Below, in pieces: positions 8,432 to 15,711 of a stretch of 64,000 bases of DNA; positions within the stretch are counted from its first letter, which is position 1; each line of letters opens with the position of its first letter. A program made the translations under genes and the position numbers. The notes under the pieces are model-generated. The model had not been told where the DNA came from. It made no database searches and worked only from the letters and a program-made list of their open reading frames with translations. Source of the stretch: Mucilaginibacter paludis DSM 18603 (GTDB lineage: Bacteria > Bacteroidota > Bacteroidia > Sphingobacteriales > Sphingobacteriaceae); the NCBI RefSeq assembly GCF_000166195.2, contig NZ_CM001403.1, positions 372,001 through 436,000 of the forward strand, read 5' to 3'.

Positions 8432-9535
8432 TCAAGCTTCCAGCTCAATATACGCATTTCTGTTCCTTAACCAATGGTCGGCTAAAACCAGCGCGGCCAT
8501 TGCTTCTACAATGGGTACGGCACGAGGTACAACGCAGGGATCATGCCTGCCCTTGCCGCTAATCTCGGCCGCATTACCGCCAGCATCAACAGTTTGCTGA
8601 TTGTGCATAATAGTGGCTACCGGTTTAAAAGCGACCTTAAATTCGATAGGCATACCATTGCTGATACCACCCTGTATGCCGCCCGAAAAATTAGTGATGG
8701 TTTTGATATCTCCCAAATGGCTTTTCACAAAGATATCATTATGCTCGGAGCCGCGCATCTCGCTGCCGGCAAAACCTGAGCCGAACTCGAAACCGTGTAC
8801 GGCGTTAATGCTCAACATCGCTTTGCCTAATTCGGCGTGCAGTTTATCAAACACGGGTTCGCCAAGGCCAACCGGGCAGTTTTGGATATGGCAACTCACC
8901 TTACCCCCTACCGTATCGCCATCCTTGCGCACCGAATCTATAAATTCAATCATTTCTTCGGCAGTTGCCGGATCAGCGCAACGCACGATGTTGCTTTCCC
9001 TTACCGCCAAAAATTCTTCAGCAGTGGTGATCTCCACATTGGGTGCGTCTATTTTGCCTACACTGCTTACATGCGCCAGTATTTCAATGCGCTGGGTTTT
9101 CAGCAATAATTTGGCAATGGCACCAGCGGCTACCCGTGCGGCGGTTTCACGGGCTGATGAACGGCCGCCACCGCGATAATCGCGGATGCCGTATTTGGCC
9201 TGGTAAGTATAATCGGCATGCGACGGGCGAAAAACGTCGGTATTGTGGCTGTAATCCTTTGATCGCTGGTCCTCATTGGGTATCAGCATCGCAATCGGTG
9301 TCCCGGTAGTTTTGCCTTCAAATACCCCTGATAGTATCTTAACGGTATCACTCTCTTTGCGCTGGGTAGTTATTTTACTTTGGCCCGGTTTGCGTTTATC
9401 GAGCTCGCCCTGGATGTATTCCATATCAATGGGAAGCTGCGCCGGGCAACCATCTATGATTACGCCGATGGCTTCGCCATGTGATTCGCCAAAAGTAGTT
9501 ATCCTGAATAATTGTCCGAATGAATTGCCTGCCAT
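8432..9535 (-). CDS. aroC: Chorismate synthase
   Basis: It catalyses the last shikimate-pathway step, 5-enolpyruvylshikimate-3-phosphate to chorismate, with reduced FMN. The 367-residue product has the family signatures [16 protein letters not shown] near the N-terminus, RPSHADYTY with [12 protein letters not shown] in the middle, and [21 protein letters not shown] near the C-terminus. The ATG at 9535 is chosen because the protein then begins [20 protein letters not shown], the usual family start; the frame extends ~11 codons upstream only into a repeated intergenic word. The cluster partners are pheA, DAHP synthase/chorismate mutase and aroA on the same strand, separated from aroA by a block of repeats. 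Confidence 0.97.
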
Positions 9536-9616
9536 GTTGTTATTGGTATTGAGTAATGAGTATTGCAAATAGCTGTACTCATTTGTATTTTTTATTTAGT
9601 ATTTACTCCTTCAACG

Positions 9617-9732
9617 CGTCATTGCGAGGTACGAAGCAATCGCTACTTAGACAGAGCGGCTTTGCATTTTCGCTTTGCATTTTCGCTTTGTACAGCTTAG
9701 AGATTGCTTCGTCGTTCCTCCTCGCAATGACG
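9617..9732. repeat. Palindromic intergenic repeat, copy A
   Basis: The ends are perfect inverted copies: CGTCATTGCGAGG at the left and CCTCGCAATGACG at the right, extended by GTACGAAGCAATC / GATTGCTTCGTCG. The centre (CTTAGACAGAGCGG...TTTCGCTTTGTACAGC) carries an internal duplication of CGCTTTGCATTTT in this copy only. No coding content. Confidence 0.9.
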
Positions 9733-9750
9733 ATGGTTTTTCTCTCCACT

Positions 9751-9853
9751 CGTCATTGCGAGGTACGAAGCAATCTCTACTTAGGCAGAGCGGTTGTGCA
9801 TTTTAACTCTGTATAGCTTAGAGATTGCTTCGTCTTTCCTCCTCGCAATGACG
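9751..9853. repeat. Palindromic intergenic repeat, copy B
   Basis: Same ends and centre as copy A (arms CGTCATTGCGAGG / CCTCGCAATGACG), separated from A by an 18-base spacer that also precedes copy D. Confidence 0.9.
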
Positions 9854-9886
9854 TCTTATTAAATTACTGACAGCCAGCATAAAAGT

Positions 9887-9965
9887 GTCATTGCGAGGTA
9901 CGAAGCAATCGCAAACTATACAGAGCGAAATGCCTCCGTGCGATTACTTCGCTCCTTGTAATGAC
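9887..9965. repeat. Palindromic intergenic repeat, copy C (diverged, short)
   Basis: The left arm GTCATTGCGAGGTACGAAGC is intact. The centre is shortened and the right arm has decayed to TTGTAATGAC. The ~33-base spacer before it recurs before copy E. Confidence 0.8.
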
Positions 9966-9998
9966 ATCTATTTAAGTTATTGAATATCAGTACATTTA

Positions 9999-10310
9999 AT
10001 TCTGTTCCGATAATCAGTATCCTTAATTTATAGCATTGGCACGCTCAATCGCCGCGTGAAGGGCTGTTACTTTTGTCTTGACACAAAAGTAACCAAAAAG
10101 TCAAGACTGCCCGATCCTTCCACCCGCAGGCCAACTCCTGGCCCGGCGTGCAGTCTGGCCTTTGCGCACTTTTCTTTTTGCGCTTGGTAATCTATAAGGT
10201 TCAAACGCCATCCCTATTTTTTTCAGGTTGGGCCGGATCATTACTCGCGATGACAGCTTTCACGCACAAAAATGGGGTGTCATACTGAGCCTGTCGAAGT
10301 ACGGTGCGGT
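9999..10310 (-). repeat. Long structured intergenic repeat, copy 1 (short form)
   Basis: Read on the minus strand this copy begins near 10310 with a TTCGACAGGCTCAGTATGAC word. It continues through CCTGAAAAAAATAGGGATGG and a core stem (GACTGC ... GCAGTC) with an inner GCCAG/TTGGC stem, and ends in CGATTGAGCG and a final GATAATCAGTATCCTTAA-type edge (plus-strand reading). It lacks the inner insertion present in the copies at 26.5 and 57.2 kb; TCAAGACTGCC is joined directly to the TTTTGTGTCAAGACAAAAGT hairpin. Confidence 0.75.
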
Positions 10311-10401
10311 GGCCTCTACAATCGGTACTCAGTTGTAGTTTCACCCTTTCACAGACTACCTGTATTAAATCCTCGCAATGACGACGGTTTTTCTCTCCAA
10401 G

Positions 10402-10504
10402 CGTCATTGCGAGGTACGAAGCAATCTCTACTTAGGCAAAGCGGCTCTGCATTTTCGCTCTGTACAGCTTAGAGATTGCTTCGTCGTACCTCCTCGCAAT
10501 GACG
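10402..10504. repeat. Palindromic intergenic repeat, copy D
   Basis: Near-identical to copy B, with the same left spacer (GGTTTTTCTCTCCA). The half-repeat TCCTCGCAATGACG at 10371-10384 just before it is the decayed end of a further copy, so the A-B-C block has been duplicated. Confidence 0.9.
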
Positions 10505-10536
10505 TCTTATTAAATTATTGACAGCCAGCATAAAGT

Positions 10537-10638
10537 GTCATTGCGAGGTATGAAGTAATCTCTACTTAGGAAAAGCAGTTTTGCATTTTCGCTCTGTACA
10601 GCTTAGAGATTGCTTCGTCGTAGCTCCTCGCAATGACG
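10537..10638. repeat. Palindromic intergenic repeat, copy E
   Basis: Preceded by the same GTCTTATTAAATTA..GACAGCCAGC spacer as copy C. Unlike C, it keeps the full centre and the right arm CTCCTCGCAATGACG. Confidence 0.9.
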
Positions 10639-10688
10639 CTGAAAAAAGAATGTAACGCTTATCAATCAATCGCACTACGCAATACTCA

Positions 10689-12026
10689 TTACGCAATACT
10701 ATAACCATCAACCTTAAACCCTGCCTTTTCCAGATCACTCCAAAATGCCGGGTATGATTTTTCTACTACCTGGGGCTCCTCTACCTCCACCTGCGGCACC
10801 ACCAGGGCTAAAGGCGCAAAGGCCATGGCCATCCGGTGATCTTCGTAGGTACGGATGGTTACCTTTTCGGGGATTTGCTTTTCGCTACAGTCAAGCTTAT
10901 AAACCTGGCCTTTTTCGGTTAGCTTCACCCCTATTTTGGCCAGCTCATTTTGCAACGCAGCAACGCGATCTGTTTCTTTGATCTTTAGGGTTTCTAATCC
11001 GGTAAAGGTAGCATCATGGCCTAAGGCTGCGCAAACCACAATTACGGTCTGGGCTAAGTCGGGACATTCCTTAAAGTCGAAGATCTTTCGTAAAATAGGT
11101 TTTGCTTCCTTTTGCAGGTGAACGCCGCCATCTTTAAATTGCGATGTGATGCCAAAGTTGGCCATAATCTCAGTGATCACGCTATCGCCTTGTAAACTGT
11201 AAGGCGTTAATGCTGGTAAAAACAGTTCGGCCTCATCACACAATGCCGCTATGGCGTACCAGTAGGATGCCGCGCTCCAATCGGGCTCAACCAATATGGA
11301 AGTTTCTTTAAACGGCTGATTAGCGATATGAATGTTGTTATCGTCCCATGTATGCTGTATACCTACTTGCTGTAACATGGCCAAAGTCATCTCCACATAA
11401 GGCTTTGATGTTAATTCGCCTTCGATCTCCAAAGTTAATCCCAAAGGTAAGCTTGGCGCGATGAGCAACAGAGCCGTAATATACTGGCTGCTGATATTAC
11501 CTTTGATGCTGATGCGATCCGTTTTTTGTTGAAAACCGCTGTGGATTTGAAGCGGAGGAAAACCTTCGTTAACCTGGTAGTCAATTTTGGCACCCAACTT
11601 ACGCATGGCATCAACCAAAATACCTATCGGCCTTTGCTGCATGCGTTTAGTACCGGTAATGATGATGTTTTTATCCAGCAAAGGTAAATAGGCGGTTAAA
11701 AAACGCATAGCAGTGCCAGCGGGGCCGATATCGACATAGTCCATGGTCGATGGTCCATGGTCCATGGTTGGAGGCTGACGGTCTATGGTTGATGGTTCAC
11801 GATCCGCCACAGCCTGGCTATGGACTATGGACCATGGACTATGGACTTTTAAAACCGCAGCCAAAGTTACCGCATCGGCCGCGTCGGATATATTGAGCAC
11901 CTTAACCTTGCCTTTGCTCAGGGCCTCAATAATGAGAGCCCTGTTGCATTCGCTTTTTGAGCCGGTAAGTTGTATGGTACCGCTCAAGGTTTTTGTTGCC
12001 TTTGATATAATGATATTTGCTTGCAT
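10689..12026 (-). CDS. aroA: EPSP synthase (3-phosphoshikimate 1-carboxyvinyltransferase) with repeat-encoded insertion
   Basis: It transfers the enolpyruvyl group of PEP to shikimate-3-phosphate, the penultimate step to chorismate. Family marks are GSKSECNRALII near the N-terminus (phosphate binding), DIGPAGTAMRFLTAY, SSQYITALLL, LKIKETDRVAAL and YEDHRMAMAFAPLAL. The product is 445 residues, about 37 longer than expected. The excess is one block (positions 11736-11846) encoding low-complexity Ser/Pro/Asp/Met-rich residues between the VTLAAVLK helix and VDIGPAGTA. It is made of iterated CCATGG/GGAC words typical of intergenic DNA. The frame stays open. The stop codon lies in an AGTATTGCGTAATGAG-type repeat. 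It starts 9 bases after the DAHP synthase stop and is probably cotranscribed. Confidence 0.96.
   Translation of the reverse strand: MQANIIISKATKTLSGTIQLTGSKSECNRALIIEALSKGKVKVLNISDAADAVTLAAVLKVHSPWSIVHSQAVADREPSTIDRQPPTMDHGPSTMDYVDIGPAGTAMRFLTAYLPLLDKNIIITGTKRMQQRPIGILVDAMRKLGAKIDYQVNEGFPPLQIHSGFQQKTDRISIKGNISSQYITALLLIAPSLPLGLTLEIEGELTSKPYVEMTLAMLQQVGIQHTWDDNNIHIANQPFKETSILVEPDWSAASYWYAIAALCDEAELFLPALTPYSLQGDSVITEIMANFGITSQFKDGGVHLQKEAKPILRKIFDFKECPDLAQTVIVVCAALGHDATFTGLETLKIKETDRVAALQNELAKIGVKLTEKGQVYKLDCSEKQIPEKVTIRTYEDHRMAMAFAPLALVVPQVEVEEPQVVEKSYPAFWSDLEKAGFKVDGYSIA
11736..11846 (-). repeat. Palindromic iterated-word tract inside aroA
   Basis: About 111 bases (37 codons) of repeating CCATGGTC/CTATGGAC words form an imperfect inverted repeat: the left side reads CCATGGTCGATGGTCCATGG and the right side CTATGGACTATGGACCATGG. 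It inserts in frame between conserved parts of AroA and encodes residues such as STIDRQPPTMDHGPSTMD. Confidence 0.85.
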
Positions 12027-12035
12027 CGCTGCTGC

Positions 12036-13166
12036 TTAGGCGTGGGTTAAGTGTTCCTGCTCAGATCCGGAGATACCATCCTTATTCATGATCTCGGTTT
12101 GTTTACGGATAGATTCGCTGTGCAGCAATTCTAATAATTTTTCGGTAAACTCTTTGCTCAACTTTAAAGCAGCTCCGTAAGCGGTACGCTTTTGCAATAT
12201 CTCGTCCCAACGGTTAACCTGTAAAATGGTGATACCGTTATCTTTTTTGTAGTTGCCAATTTTTTCAACTATCTGCATTCTTTCAGCTATTTTCTGGATC
12301 ACCAAGTCATCAATTTTATCGATGTCGTTACGCAGAATAGCTAATTTATCTTTAACCTCGGCTGTACCGGCTCCTGGCTTCCTGATTTCCAAACGGCTCA
12401 TGATCTCGTCTAATGCCGAAGGTGTTAACTGTTGCTTGGCATCAGTCCAGGCTACAGACGGATCGATATGCGATTCGATGATCAAACCCTGCATATCCAG
12501 ATCGAGCGCTTTTTGGGCGATGTAAGGGATTAGCTCGCGGTTACCGCAAATATGGCTCGGATCGCAAATGATAGGCAGATCGGGTGCATGTGTCTTCAGG
12601 CTGATGGCCAGATCCCACATTGGCTCGTTGCGGAAAGCTGTTTTCTCGTGTGATGAAAAGCCCCGGTGTATAGCAGCCAGTTTGGTAATGCCGGCATTGT
12701 TAACACGCTCCAAAGCGCCTATCCATAACGACAGATCAGGATTTACCGGGTTTTTTACAATTACAGGTACATCAACACCTCTTAAAGCATCGGCAATTTC
12801 CTGCACGGTAAAAGGGTTAGCTGTTGAGCGGGCACCTATCCATAAAACATCAACTCCGCCTTTCAAGGCTTCTTCTACGTGTTTGGCTGTGGCTACTTCA
12901 ACCGCGGTTGGCAGGCCAGTTTCGGCTTTAGCGCGTTTCAACCATTCCAGGCCAATGCTGCCAATACCTTCAAACTCTCCCGGACGGGTACGCGGTTTCC
13001 AGATGCCCGCACGCAAAACCGATACGCGGCCTGTTTTTGCCAATAAATGCGCCGTAGCAACTAACTGCTCTTCGGTTTCGGCACTGCAAGGGCCAGCAAT
13101 TAAAAAGGGTTCTTTGGTTACCTTAGCCCAGGTATTGAGCGGTTGTATGTTAAAATTTAGTTTCAT
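12036..13166 (-). CDS. Bifunctional DAHP synthase / chorismate mutase (type II)
   Basis: Residues ~1-265 form a KDO8P-synthase-like DAHP synthase (PEP + erythrose-4-phosphate to DAHP, the first shikimate step). Visible motifs are FLIAGPCSAE, LRAGIWKPRTRPG (phosphate and PEP binding), LWIGARSTANPFTVQEIA, KNPVNPDLSLWIGA, HRGF and CDPSHICGNR (metal). Residues ~275-365 form an AroQ-type chorismate mutase (LRNDIDKIDDLVIQKIAERMQIVEKIGNYKK). The fusion therefore feeds both entry to the pathway and the branch to prephenate. It lies between pheA and aroA on the same strand, within what looks like one operon under the Phe attenuator upstream of pheA. Confidence 0.95.
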   Translation of the reverse strand: MKLNFNIQPLNTWAKVTKEPFLIAGPCSAETEEQLVATAHLLAKTGRVSVLRAGIWKPRTRPGEFEGIGSIGLEWLKRAKAETGLPTAVEVATAKHVEEALKGGVDVLWIGARSTANPFTVQEIADALRGVDVPVIVKNPVNPDLSLWIGALERVNNAGITKLAAIHRGFSSHEKTAFRNEPMWDLAISLKTHAPDLPIICDPSHICGNRELIPYIAQKALDLDMQGLIIESHIDPSVAWTDAKQQLTPSALDEIMSRLEIRKPGAGTAEVKDKLAILRNDIDKIDDLVIQKIAERMQIVEKIGNYKKDNGITILQVNRWDEILQKRTAYGAALKLSKEFTEKLLELLHSESIRKQTEIMNKDGISGSEQEHLTHA

Positions 13167-13246: not shown

Positions 13247-13276
13247 TTTCCTCCCCCATCAGGGGGTCGGGGGGCC
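13247..13276. repeat. GC-rich palindrome at the 3' end of pheA
   Basis: CCTCCCCCATCAGGGGGTCG followed by a G-run is a C5/G5 inverted repeat. It supplies the last residues and the stop codon of pheA. It resembles a mini-repeat often seen between genes in this family and may also act as a terminator or processing stem. Confidence 0.55.
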
Positions 13277-14104
13277 GTCATTCTTTAAATATTCGCCCAG
13301 TATGTTAAAGTTTTGCGTGTATTTTAAGATCTGGCGGATGGCCGTATCGTACTGCTCTTGTTTTTCCCATTCAACGTCTACATAAAAATTGTATTCGTTA
13401 CGTTTGCCTAATACCGGCATCGATTGTATTTTGCTCATGTTTAGCTCTTGCCCGGCAAAAATATTAAGCACTTTAGCCAGCGCTCCTACATGGTTACCCA
13501 CCTGGAAACATAATGATGCTTTATTGGCCTGTATTTTCTCGGCATCGTTATGGTCTGTCAGAATTAAAAAGCGGGTATAGTTGGTTCTGTTTGATTCTAT
13601 CCTGCGTTCCAAAACATCAAGGCCGTACAATTTGGCAGCAAGGGTATTGGCGATGGCAACAGTATCCGTCAGTTTTTCATCACGTACCCTTTTGGCGCAG
13701 GCGGCGGTATCAGTCCCTTCCACCAACTGGATATGCGGATATGCTTCAAAAAAATCAAGGCATTGGCGCAAAGCCATCGGGTGAGATGTTACCACCTTTA
13801 CATCCTCAAATTTAACGCCCGGATAAGCTAACAGATGCAGTTGGATAGGTAAATAAACTTCGCCCACCACCGGGAAATTATAATTCATCAGTAACGTATA
13901 GTTTGGCAATATACTGCCTGCTATACTGTTTTCAATGGCCATAATTACATAGTCGGCTTCCTTAGCCTGTAGCTTCTCAAACGTTTGTTTAAACGAGCTG
14001 CATTCTACCGGCTCAATGTCATCACCAAAAAATTTAAAAGCCGCTTCTTCGTGAAACGATGCCCTGATTCCTTGTATAGCTACTCTTGGTTTCCTGTTTT
14101 CCAT
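13259..14104 (-). CDS. pheA: Prephenate dehydratase
   Basis: It converts prephenate to phenylpyruvate, the committed step to phenylalanine. The N-terminal PDT domain shows IQGIRASFHEEAAFKFF, ENSIAGSILPNY, SHPMALRQCLDF and the catalytic NRTNYTRFLIL (TRF motif). An ACT regulatory domain follows (LCFQVGNHVGALAKVL ... MSKIQSMPVLG), which in the family binds Phe for feedback inhibition. The ATG at 14104 (MENRKPRVAIQG) is chosen over TTG codons further out. The last codons (DGPPTP, then TGA) come from a GC-rich palindrome. The gene directly follows an attenuator with an aromatic-rich leader peptide. The genes after it are DAHP synthase/chorismate mutase and aroA. Confidence 0.96.
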   Translation of the reverse strand: MENRKPRVAIQGIRASFHEEAAFKFFGDDIEPVECSSFKQTFEKLQAKEADYVIMAIENSIAGSILPNYTLLMNYNFPVVGEVYLPIQLHLLAYPGVKFEDVKVVTSHPMALRQCLDFFEAYPHIQLVEGTDTAACAKRVRDEKLTDTVAIANTLAAKLYGLDVLERRIESNRTNYTRFLILTDHNDAEKIQANKASLCFQVGNHVGALAKVLNIFAGQELNMSKIQSMPVLGKRNEYNFYVDVEWEKQEQYDTAIRQILKYTQNFNILGEYLKNDGPPTP

Positions 14105-14117
14105 ATTTGTATTCAAC

Positions 14118-14150
14118 AAAAAAGTCCCGGCTGTTGGGCCGGGACTTTTT
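14118..14150 (-). terminator. Attenuator terminator hairpin before pheA
   Basis: On the minus strand the arms AAAAAGTCCCGGC and GCCGGGACTTTTT enclose the loop CCAACA. The second arm runs into a T-run (TTTTTTG). It sits between the leader ORF and the pheA ATG, only 14 bases before the latter. Its first arm can pair instead with GCCGGGACT at the end of the leader ORF. Confidence 0.88.
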
Positions 14151-14177
14151 GCTTTTTATTATATCTGTTACGACATA

Positions 14178-14243
14178 TCAGTCCCGGCTTGTACTCATAA
14201 AGTAAAAGTAATAACCGAACCAGAATGCGTTTGTAAACTTCAT
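14178..14243 (-). CDS. Phe/Tyr/Trp-rich leader peptide of the pheA attenuator
   Basis: A 21-codon ORF (ATG at 14243, TGA at 14180-14178). It starts MKFTNA, then has the run FWFGYYFYF, then MSTSRD. Nine of 21 residues are aromatic (5 Phe, 3 Tyr, 1 Trp). Its last codons contain GCCGGGACT (AGC-CGG-GAC-TGA). This is exactly complementary to the first arm of the downstream terminator, over 9 bases. A ribosome stalled on the aromatic codons would leave this segment free to form the antiterminator; a ribosome reaching the stop codon would cover it and permit the terminator. This is the classic layout of pheA-type attenuation. No strong Shine-Dalgarno is visible, as is usual in the phylum. Confidence 0.85.
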   Translation of the reverse strand: MKFTNAFWFGYYFYFMSTSRD

Positions 14244-14262
14244 ATTGTTTTTAATTGCGCTG

Positions 14263-14292
14263 TAAATTTACGTTTAATAATTAATTTGTCAA
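14263..14292 (-). promoter_or_regulatory. Predicted promoter of the pheA attenuator/operon
   Basis: On the minus strand, TTG (14292-14290) is followed 19 bases later by TAAATTTA (14270-14263). This matches the Bacteroidota consensus of TTG at -33 and TAnnTTTG at -7 except for the last base. Start of transcription would fall ~14256, just before the leader ATG at 14243. Confidence 0.6.
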
Positions 14293-14410: not shown

Positions 14411-15565
14411 TTACTTCGAACCAAATATTTGCGATAACTTTTTTGTAAGCTCTTCGCCAAATAAGTTCTTTGCTATAATCTTTCCGGACGGGGCAATCAA
14501 AAAATTCTGCGGAATAGCCTGCACCGAATACAGTTTTGCGGCGGCATTATTCCATGATTTTAAATCCGATACCTGTGTCCAGTAGAGCTCATCAGTACCG
14601 ATAGCTTTAATCCAGGCATCTCTCTTTTCATCAAGCGATACACCGAGAATGGCAAAGTTAAAATCTTTAAACTGCTTATATGCCTTCAACACGTTTGGAT
14701 TTTCCCGTCGGCAAGGGCCGCACCATGATGCCCAAAAATCAATCAATACATACTTTCCTTTAAACAAAGAGAGTGATACAGGCCTATCGTTCTGATCGTT
14801 CATCGTAAACGCCGGGGCAAGGGAGCCCAACCGGGTTAACTTTAGTCCGGCTAACATATCAACGTACCCTTGTCCAAATTTTGTATCCTTTAATTCGGGT
14901 AAAAGGGCTTCAAATAACGGACCCAATTGCTCATATTCCGGATAAGGCTCTTCGTTGTGCTTTAAGATATACAAACTTACCGGCGACCATGGGTGCGTTT
15001 TCACAAATTGCAAGGCATCAGCCTTCTGTTCATTTTTAAAAGCAGCTGTTGCCTTGCCCATATCATACAAAAACGTTTTCTCACGCACCTCTTCGGGTAT
15101 TTGCATCTCGCCCTTTATCCATTTTTTGTATTTGATATGATATGCTGTGAGTATTGAATCGTACTCCAGATGATCGTGCATCGCCCTGCCGCCGGTAACG
15201 ATGGCATAACGTGCCGAATCTGCTATCTTTACTTCAATTTTACCCGGCTCCAGGTATACCGTGCCCCAATCCCGAAAGGTATTTACATTGATGATATCGA
15301 AATTCATTCCTTTACCGGTATGGTCAAGAAAAATACTGGAGTGCGAATCGTTATAGTTCTGGTCTGGTTCATTACTAATGGTTACGTTTCCACTAAAAGT
15401 AAAATTGCCTTTTGTGATGATGGCTGAGTCGCGAATATGATTGCCGATGAGGTATACCTTTTGACCCTCTTTGTAATTTTCAACAATACCCTTTATAACA
15501 AATGGCCCCGATTGCGCCATTAGGATGAATGGGGACAATAATAACAAGATAGCAGCAACTTTCAT
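14411..15565 (-). CDS. TlpA-family thiol-disulfide protein with DUF4369 domain
   Basis: An exported 384-residue protein: signal peptide (MKVAAILLLLSPFILMAQ), N-terminal DUF4369-like beta domain (FVIKGIVENYKEGQKVYLIG), helical middle, and a C-terminal thioredoxin fold with the redox site FWASWCGPCRRENP and cis-Pro region AIPQNFLIAPSG. Such proteins act in the periplasm or attached to the membrane, usually as reductants of specific clients. The ATG at 15565 was chosen because it starts the signal peptide; the longer frame begins with a TTG. It is closely similar in layout to the protein at 44587. No gene partner is adjacent. Confidence 0.88.
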   Translation of the reverse strand: MKVAAILLLLSPFILMAQSGPFVIKGIVENYKEGQKVYLIGNHIRDSAIITKGNFTFSGNVTISNEPDQNYNDSHSSIFLDHTGKGMNFDIINVNTFRDWGTVYLEPGKIEVKIADSARYAIVTGGRAMHDHLEYDSILTAYHIKYKKWIKGEMQIPEEVREKTFLYDMGKATAAFKNEQKADALQFVKTHPWSPVSLYILKHNEEPYPEYEQLGPLFEALLPELKDTKFGQGYVDMLAGLKLTRLGSLAPAFTMNDQNDRPVSLSLFKGKYVLIDFWASWCGPCRRENPNVLKAYKQFKDFNFAILGVSLDEKRDAWIKAIGTDELYWTQVSDLKSWNNAAAKLYSVQAIPQNFLIAPSGKIIAKNLFGEELTKKLSQIFGSK

Positions 15566-15711
15566 AATAGCGATAATGTACAAATAAATATATGTATTAC
15601 ATTATAGTACTGAAGCATTCCGTCAAAATTACAATATGGCATTTCTATGAATTTACTTTTAAACCATTTTAGTCAATTTGCTACAGAAACAGTTATAGCG
15701 ATCTTGCGCAC

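Follow-up and report, generated by a model that had tools for sequence, protein, structure and literature searches.

A candidate leader-peptide attenuator with Phe and Tyr codons upstream of pheA in Mucilaginibacter paludis and related Bacteroidia

Introduction

The pheA gene of Mucilaginibacter paludis DSM 18603 is closely preceded by a short open reading frame rich in aromatic codons and by a hairpin, an arrangement that raises the question of how expression of pheA and of the aromatic genes behind it is controlled. The initial annotation of this locus proposed ribosome-mediated attenuation, and this reading is strongly supported by our sequence comparison among relatives. Our analysis started from a 64,000-nucleotide stretch of the genome (termed the window) and was extended to pheA upstream regions in the genus, family, class, and phylum. 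We assign a probability of roughly 0.88 to the region being a ribosome-mediated transcription attenuator that controls pheA and, probably, the downstream aromatic genes. The sequences on which this assignment rests show the leader, the terminator, and three segments complementary to one another; they also show that these parts are conserved and covary.

Results

Features upstream of pheA

The elements preceding pheA lie on the minus strand (Table 1). As originally described, the leader ORF has nine aromatics among its 21 residues (F3, F7, W8, F9, Y11, Y12, F13, Y14, and F15), and it is followed by a terminator with 13-base arms and a T run. The run consists of six T and ends at 14118; the pheA ATG starts at 14104, 13 bases past the T run by our count rather than the 14 reported earlier. 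The complementarity that had been noted between the final codons of the leader and the first arm of the terminator was also found, with AGCCGGGACT ending in the T of the leader's TGA stop codon. The shared segment that links the leader tail to the terminator is GCCGGGACT. An extended 1:2 stem (GCATAT/ATATGC) identified by eye was absent from the consensus fold, and we make no claim for it.

Table 1. Positions in the window of the pheA leader elements and of the neighboring genes.
Feature	Position	Strand	Remarks
Promoter-like TTG-N19-TAAATTTA	14263..14292	-	TTG at 14292-14290, TAAATTTA at 14270-14263
Leader ORF, MKFTNAFWFGYYFYFMSTSRD and stop	14178..14243	-	21 codons
Segment 1 (CTTTTACT)	14201..14208	-	Inside aromatic codons; 5' side of the family 1:2 hairpin
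Segment 1 partner (AGTACAAG)	14188..14195	-	Family 1:2 hairpin
Segment 2 (AGCCGGGACT)	14180..14189	-	Overlaps the leader ORF end; complementary to segment 3
Segment 3 (AAAAAGTCCCGGC)	14138..14150	-	Terminator 5' arm, 13 nt
Segment 4 and T run	14118..14131	-	Terminator 3' arm, 13 nt (GCCGGGACTTTTT, 14131-14119)
pheA, prephenate dehydratase	13259..14104	-	NCBIfam prephenate dehydratase models, 199 bits versus cut-off of 219
DAHP synthase/chorismate mutase	12036..13166	-	NCBIfam matches to both domains, under curated cut-offs
aroA	10689..12026	-	TIGR01356, 297 bits, above cut-off
aroC	8432..9535	-	TIGR00033, 484 bits, above cut-off
Thioredoxin-like gene	14411-15583	-	Upstream and co-directional

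The 150-nt RNA of this region folded with a z-score of -4.45, and none of 200 shuffled sequences folded as well. Searching both strands of the 64-kb window revealed five short ORFs with at least six aromatics in 10 residues, and only the pheA leader among them was accompanied by a terminator and a complementary segment of at least 6 bp. A chance origin of the leader/terminator layout was ruled out by the shuffles, both in folding and under the layout rule described below.

The promoter pattern that had been reported on the minus strand is present, and it may well be the site from which the leader is transcribed. Matches to TTG-N17..23-TAnnTTT within 90 nt upstream of the leader occurred in 148 of 170 testable regions, with the N19 spacing in 120 of the 148, compared to 242 of 3400 shuffles with a promoter-like pattern. 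The leader ATG in the window has A at -3, -6, -12, and -13, positions at which A helps initiation in Flavobacterium johnsoniae (PMC6847099). Among 167 ATG leaders, A was present at these positions in 105, 104, 82, and 53 cases, respectively; the motif is thus general only in part.

Conservation in the genus, family, and class

Upstream regions were scored with a three-part layout rule that called for an ORF of 8-45 codons containing at least six F/Y/W in 10, a terminator within 140 nt, and at least 6 bp between the leader tail and the 5' arm of the terminator. A first, stricter terminator rule accepted 128 of the 162 family regions and 24 of 40 others; it missed some hairpins because A-U pairs extend into the T tract. 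The terminator rule was relaxed after those results were known, and we give the relaxed counts, for which 0 of 2220 shuffles over all sets passed. Of 121 sampled family genomes, 107 contained pheA and all 107 upstream regions were used; with genus, order, and named loci they make up the 162 unique family regions. The full layout was found in 147 of these 162 mutually related, and hence not independent, regions (0/1620 shuffles), and the aromatic ORF alone in 159 (32/1620 shuffles). The 15 misses comprised two regions cut by contig ends (L021 and L030), 12 regions with a leader and a hairpin or complement below the rule, and L075, the 450-nt region of genome G007, which looked empty because the element lies ∼465 nt upstream.

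We located pheA in 143 of the 149 genus genomes, and PheA of the relatives named Mucilaginibacter was 75-89% identical in the best segment. A covariance model (R1) built from 49 family sequences matched 144 of the 149 genomes: each of the 143 in which pheA was located gave E ≤ 5e-11, and the one further match, in a genome lacking a pheA hit, had E = 9e-4; these matches arise partly by construction because the training set included genus members. When 40 high-scoring genomes of the 143 were inspected by eye, the element was on the same strand and preceded the matched pheA stretch by 9-90 nt. Nine genus genomes gave two R1 matches each, with the second strong match in G101 residing on another contig and one in G096 at a contig end. 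Five weak second matches (41-47 bits) were rejected as further copies; they are plain terminators lacking an aromatic leader.

The distance to the gene bears on a reading in which the hairpin acts on translation, masking the pheA start until a leader ribosome opens it and terminating no transcription. The 13-nt gap between the T run and the pheA ATG in the window would suit such a role, as would the tuning of initiation by mRNA structure in Bacteroidetes (PMC6847099). Against this, the family consensus has a T run after the hairpin, and the spacing to pheA is variable (90 nt in G088, ∼465 nt in G007, and >100 nt in L190), and we regard control at the level of translation as improbable.

A PheA match was present in 172 of 198 genomes of the phylum sample. 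Outside the family, 36 of 39 same-class regions were compared (G330, G412, and G504 were left out); an aromatic leader was found in 33 of the 36, and 23 satisfied the full rule. In the three leaderless regions (L191, L192, and L201), pheA lies behind an aroA-like reading frame. Among 24 regions of other classes, chosen from a longer list, a leader was present in three (L204-L206) and in none of the other 21. The difference between 33 of 36 and three of 24 suggests that the aromatic leader is, as sampled, mainly a feature of the class Bacteroidia. The PheA proteins accompanying the leaders of L204, L205, and L206 (genes in L239-L241) are 44-45% identical to that of the window, and transfer of pheA together with its attenuator is possible.

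Covariation of the pairing segments

The leader tail and the terminator arm change together. In a swap test, each leader tail was paired with its own or with other terminator arms; 12 of 202 unique regions were dropped as having no leader-hairpin pair by rule (L021, L025, L030, L075, L140, L155, L184, L191, L192, L201, L202, and L207), and in L180 the scripted choice of ORF and hairpin was not the one adjoining pheA. Over 95 distinct terminator arms, the pairing energy was -14.45 kcal/mol with the own arm versus -11.7 kcal/mol with others' arms. The corresponding values were -15.6 versus -14.2 kcal/mol for the 67 family arms and -11.8 versus -7.5 kcal/mol for the 28 arms outside the family (including L204-L206). 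The own-arm preference was matched in 0 of 2000 permutations for each of the three sets. In places the core CCGGGAC is replaced by GAGGC, CAGGAT, or ACGGGAC, and the terminator changes to match; one coordinated change in L046 extends across all three segments.

Base pairs were counted on an alignment of 49 rows (A1). The terminator helix was paired in 95.2% of cells, with double changes in nine of 12 pairs, and all five measures exceeded every shuffle. For the 2:3 antiterminator, 93.9% of cells were paired (0/500 shuffles), double changes were seen in four of nine pairs (8/500), and the score was reached by 3/500; its number of pair types was no better than that of shuffles (199/500 as high). 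The 1:2 hairpin was paired in 99.1% of cells (0/500) and contained 12 double-change cells (0/500), again with pair types no better than shuffles (468/500). One 1:2 pair is C-G in 39 of the 49 rows and U-A in the remaining 10 without exception; the 5' base of this pair occupies the third position of a Tyr codon (codon 14 in the window), which makes the change silent. Segment 2 begins past the stop codon in 20 of 171 calls and is therefore conserved as RNA.

These results also bear on whether the hairpin merely terminates the thioredoxin-like gene, which lies upstream on the same strand, the short ORF being an unrelated small protein gene or noise. Such a reading is at odds with the exclusion of chance by the shuffles, with the covariation of leader tail and terminator, with the retention of segment 2 outside the frame of shorter leaders, and with the promoter-like site between the upstream gene and the leader; we consider it very improbable. 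The initial annotation had staked its attenuator reading on conservation of the leader ORF and alternative pairing in close relatives. Both are conserved there, along with the 3:4 pairing and the promoter spacing, and compensatory changes are present.

Proposed model of the switch

In the attenuator that we favor, scarcity of charged Phe- or Tyr-tRNA would stall the ribosome on the Phe/Tyr codons of the leader, allowing segment 2 to pair with segment 3. This antiterminator would prevent formation of the 3:4 terminator, so that pheA would be expressed, probably along with the aromatic genes that follow. A ribosome that reaches the stop codon would instead cover segment 2, and the terminator would form. 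Charged Phe-tRNA and Tyr-tRNA would thus be the signals, as suggested by the codons, and translation would have to follow RNA polymerase closely at the leader.

We modeled stalling by masking the bases covered by the ribosome and folding the transcript as it stands prior to synthesis of segment 4. For the window, a 9-bp 2:3 antiterminator remained with codons 3-15 in the A site, 6 bp were left at codon 16, and none from codon 17 onward or at the stop. The modeled boundary lies where the aromatic run ends. An antiterminator at the last aromatic codon together with none at the stop was predicted for 141 of 147 family leaders and 11 of 24 others. In four family leaders, the model left no antiterminator when the A site held the last aromatic codon. 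In nine of the 24 non-family leaders, the modeled stop-codon ribosome left an antiterminator of at least 6 bp, mostly because the ORF continues past segment 2. Many leader ORFs of the same-class set (L168-L203) extend in this way (e.g., one ending in KRRGFVSCI), and their stop codon therefore cannot act as in the window.

Once segment 4 was present, the terminator was the more stable structure in every modeled state; the switch must therefore act during transcription. Without a ribosome, and before segment 4, the best fold also included the 2:3 antiterminator, so equilibrium folding fails to reproduce the termination expected when the leader is not translated. According to these models, the switch must rely on the order in which events unfold during transcription, something that lies outside the scope of equilibrium calculations. 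The element has the aromatic leader ORF, mutually exclusive helices, and intrinsic terminator with T run of a trp/phe-type attenuator, and the corresponding stall geometry is predicted by the model for the window and most family leaders.

Amino acids likely to be sensed

Both Phe and Tyr codons were present in all 190 leaders analyzed, and Trp codons were found in 67. Of the Phe/Tyr/Trp leader originally proposed, the Phe and Tyr components thus hold throughout, and the Trp component is inconsistent. The same counts make sensing of Phe plus Tyr, which the initial annotation had suggested, likelier than sensing of Phe alone. Leader positions exchange Phe and Tyr yet stay aromatic; at the position preceding the final aromatic, for example, 156 of 156 family leaders have an aromatic residue. 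A Phe-only attenuator of the Escherichia coli pheA type, whose Tyr codons would be tolerated one-step neighbors of Phe codons and carry no signal, would agree with pheA making only a Phe precursor and with Phe and Tyr codons being one base apart and often exchanged between relatives. It fits poorly with the presence of Tyr in every leader, at least two Tyr codons in 189 of 190, and a residue frequency in the family that is as high for Tyr (0.201) as for Phe (0.182); moreover, the genes that follow pheA are used for all aromatic amino acids. We consider a Phe-only signal possible, though doubtful.

Genes behind pheA and other leaders in the genome

The DAHP synthase/chorismate mutase and aroA genes that had been placed behind pheA were both recovered by NCBIfam matches (Table 1). 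The gap between aroA and aroC is ∼1.1 kb in the window, and pheA, DAHP synthase/chorismate mutase, aroA, and aroC are closely spaced in five other loci (L031, L037, L042, L044, and L045). We infer that pheA, DAHP synthase/chorismate mutase, aroA, and perhaps aroC form one transcript. The aroC-aroA gap of the window (9536-10690) contains imperfect dispersed repeats of the CGTCATTGCGAGGAGG type that are missing from those five loci.

Leader-like regions precede other amino acid genes of this genome. Upstream of trpE (L231), a short ORF (MINITNNRNWWHHLVAAG) with two Trp codons ends in GCCGG and is followed by a hairpin (AACCCGGCG...CGTCGGGTT) with a T run; it had no Rfam match up to E = 0.1 and is likely a Trp attenuator. 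The region upstream of ilvD (L229) contains a long leader ORF rich in Ile, Leu, and Val (MNQGSAQQTSIIIASVKEVVISVVIQILGIQILLLALPVHTGDKRFNQ) and then a hairpin with a T run, likely a branched-chain attenuator. Upstream of hisG (L228:1372-1422), a short ORF (MNGFNIHQLHLHHRTK) has four His codons, and no clear terminator was seen by eye before hisG.

Discussion

Bacteroidota ribosomes do not rely on Shine-Dalgarno pairing. In a broader interpretation, to which we give even odds, the element is an ancestral, class-wide (Bacteroidia) dual-codon Phe plus Tyr attenuator at the head of a common aromatic operon and one of a set of leader attenuators in the genome (Trp/trpE, Ile-Leu-Val/ilvD, and His/hisG), indicating that bacteria without Shine-Dalgarno initiation couple ribosome and RNA polymerase sufficiently for codon-level control. 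The leader would provide a compact, conserved readout of whether transcription and translation are coupled in Bacteroidota. It would also be a candidate regulator of aromatic amino acid synthesis across the class, one without an Rfam match here.

No Rfam family reached its gathering score in the window, and T-box or aptamer families were absent from the 24 weak Rfam matches in the region. The Bacteroid-trp motif (RF01692) is presumably tied to trp genes, judging by its name. Like the element in the window, it is a predicted cis-regulatory RNA of Bacteroidetes (PMC2864571); it differs in that it gave no match to the window region up to E = 10.

An attenuator before pheA is not new in kind for this phylum. 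The initial annotation had been unsure whether such cases were described; they appear in two papers. Table 7 of PMC1173090 (2005), drawn from the Merino database, includes a putative attenuator upstream of the pheA operon of Bacteroides thetaiotaomicron (pheA > hisHb > aroA-aroQ > tyrA). Like the locus in the window, that entry has a predicted terminator and antiterminator ahead of an aromatic operon led by pheA, and it comes from the same phylum; its operon content differs, and the table names neither a leader peptide nor a sensed amino acid. Leader-like short ORFs have also been described in B. thetaiotaomicron (PMC7366714). The second paper, PMC9723704 (2021), reports a structured 5' element before pheA of Flavobacterium psychrophilum, conserved in Flavobacteriaceae and without an Rfam hit, and mentions leader-peptide clues before amino acid operons of that species. 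With the same gene and the same class as in the window and likewise no Rfam hit, it is probably the same element in another family; its main text differs from the present account in giving no leader sequence, codons, or alternative pairings (PMC9723704). Among the open-licence PMC papers searched, none was recognized as giving the codon content, the covariation across three segments, the spread through the class, or the Phe plus Tyr reading. Vitreschak et al. in 2004 reportedly found attenuators in some Bacteroidetes/Chlorobi.

Another close parallel is the E. coli pheA leader (pheL), which combines a Phe-rich leader peptide, an antiterminator, and a terminator; its leader contains Phe codons and is not known to contain Tyr codons. 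The corresponding Rfam family (Phe_leader, RF01859) gave 23.8 bits for the window region (E = 0.079), under the gathering score of 55. The leader in the window precedes the same gene as pheL and follows the same logic, and in contrast to pheL every leader analyzed here has both Phe and Tyr codons.
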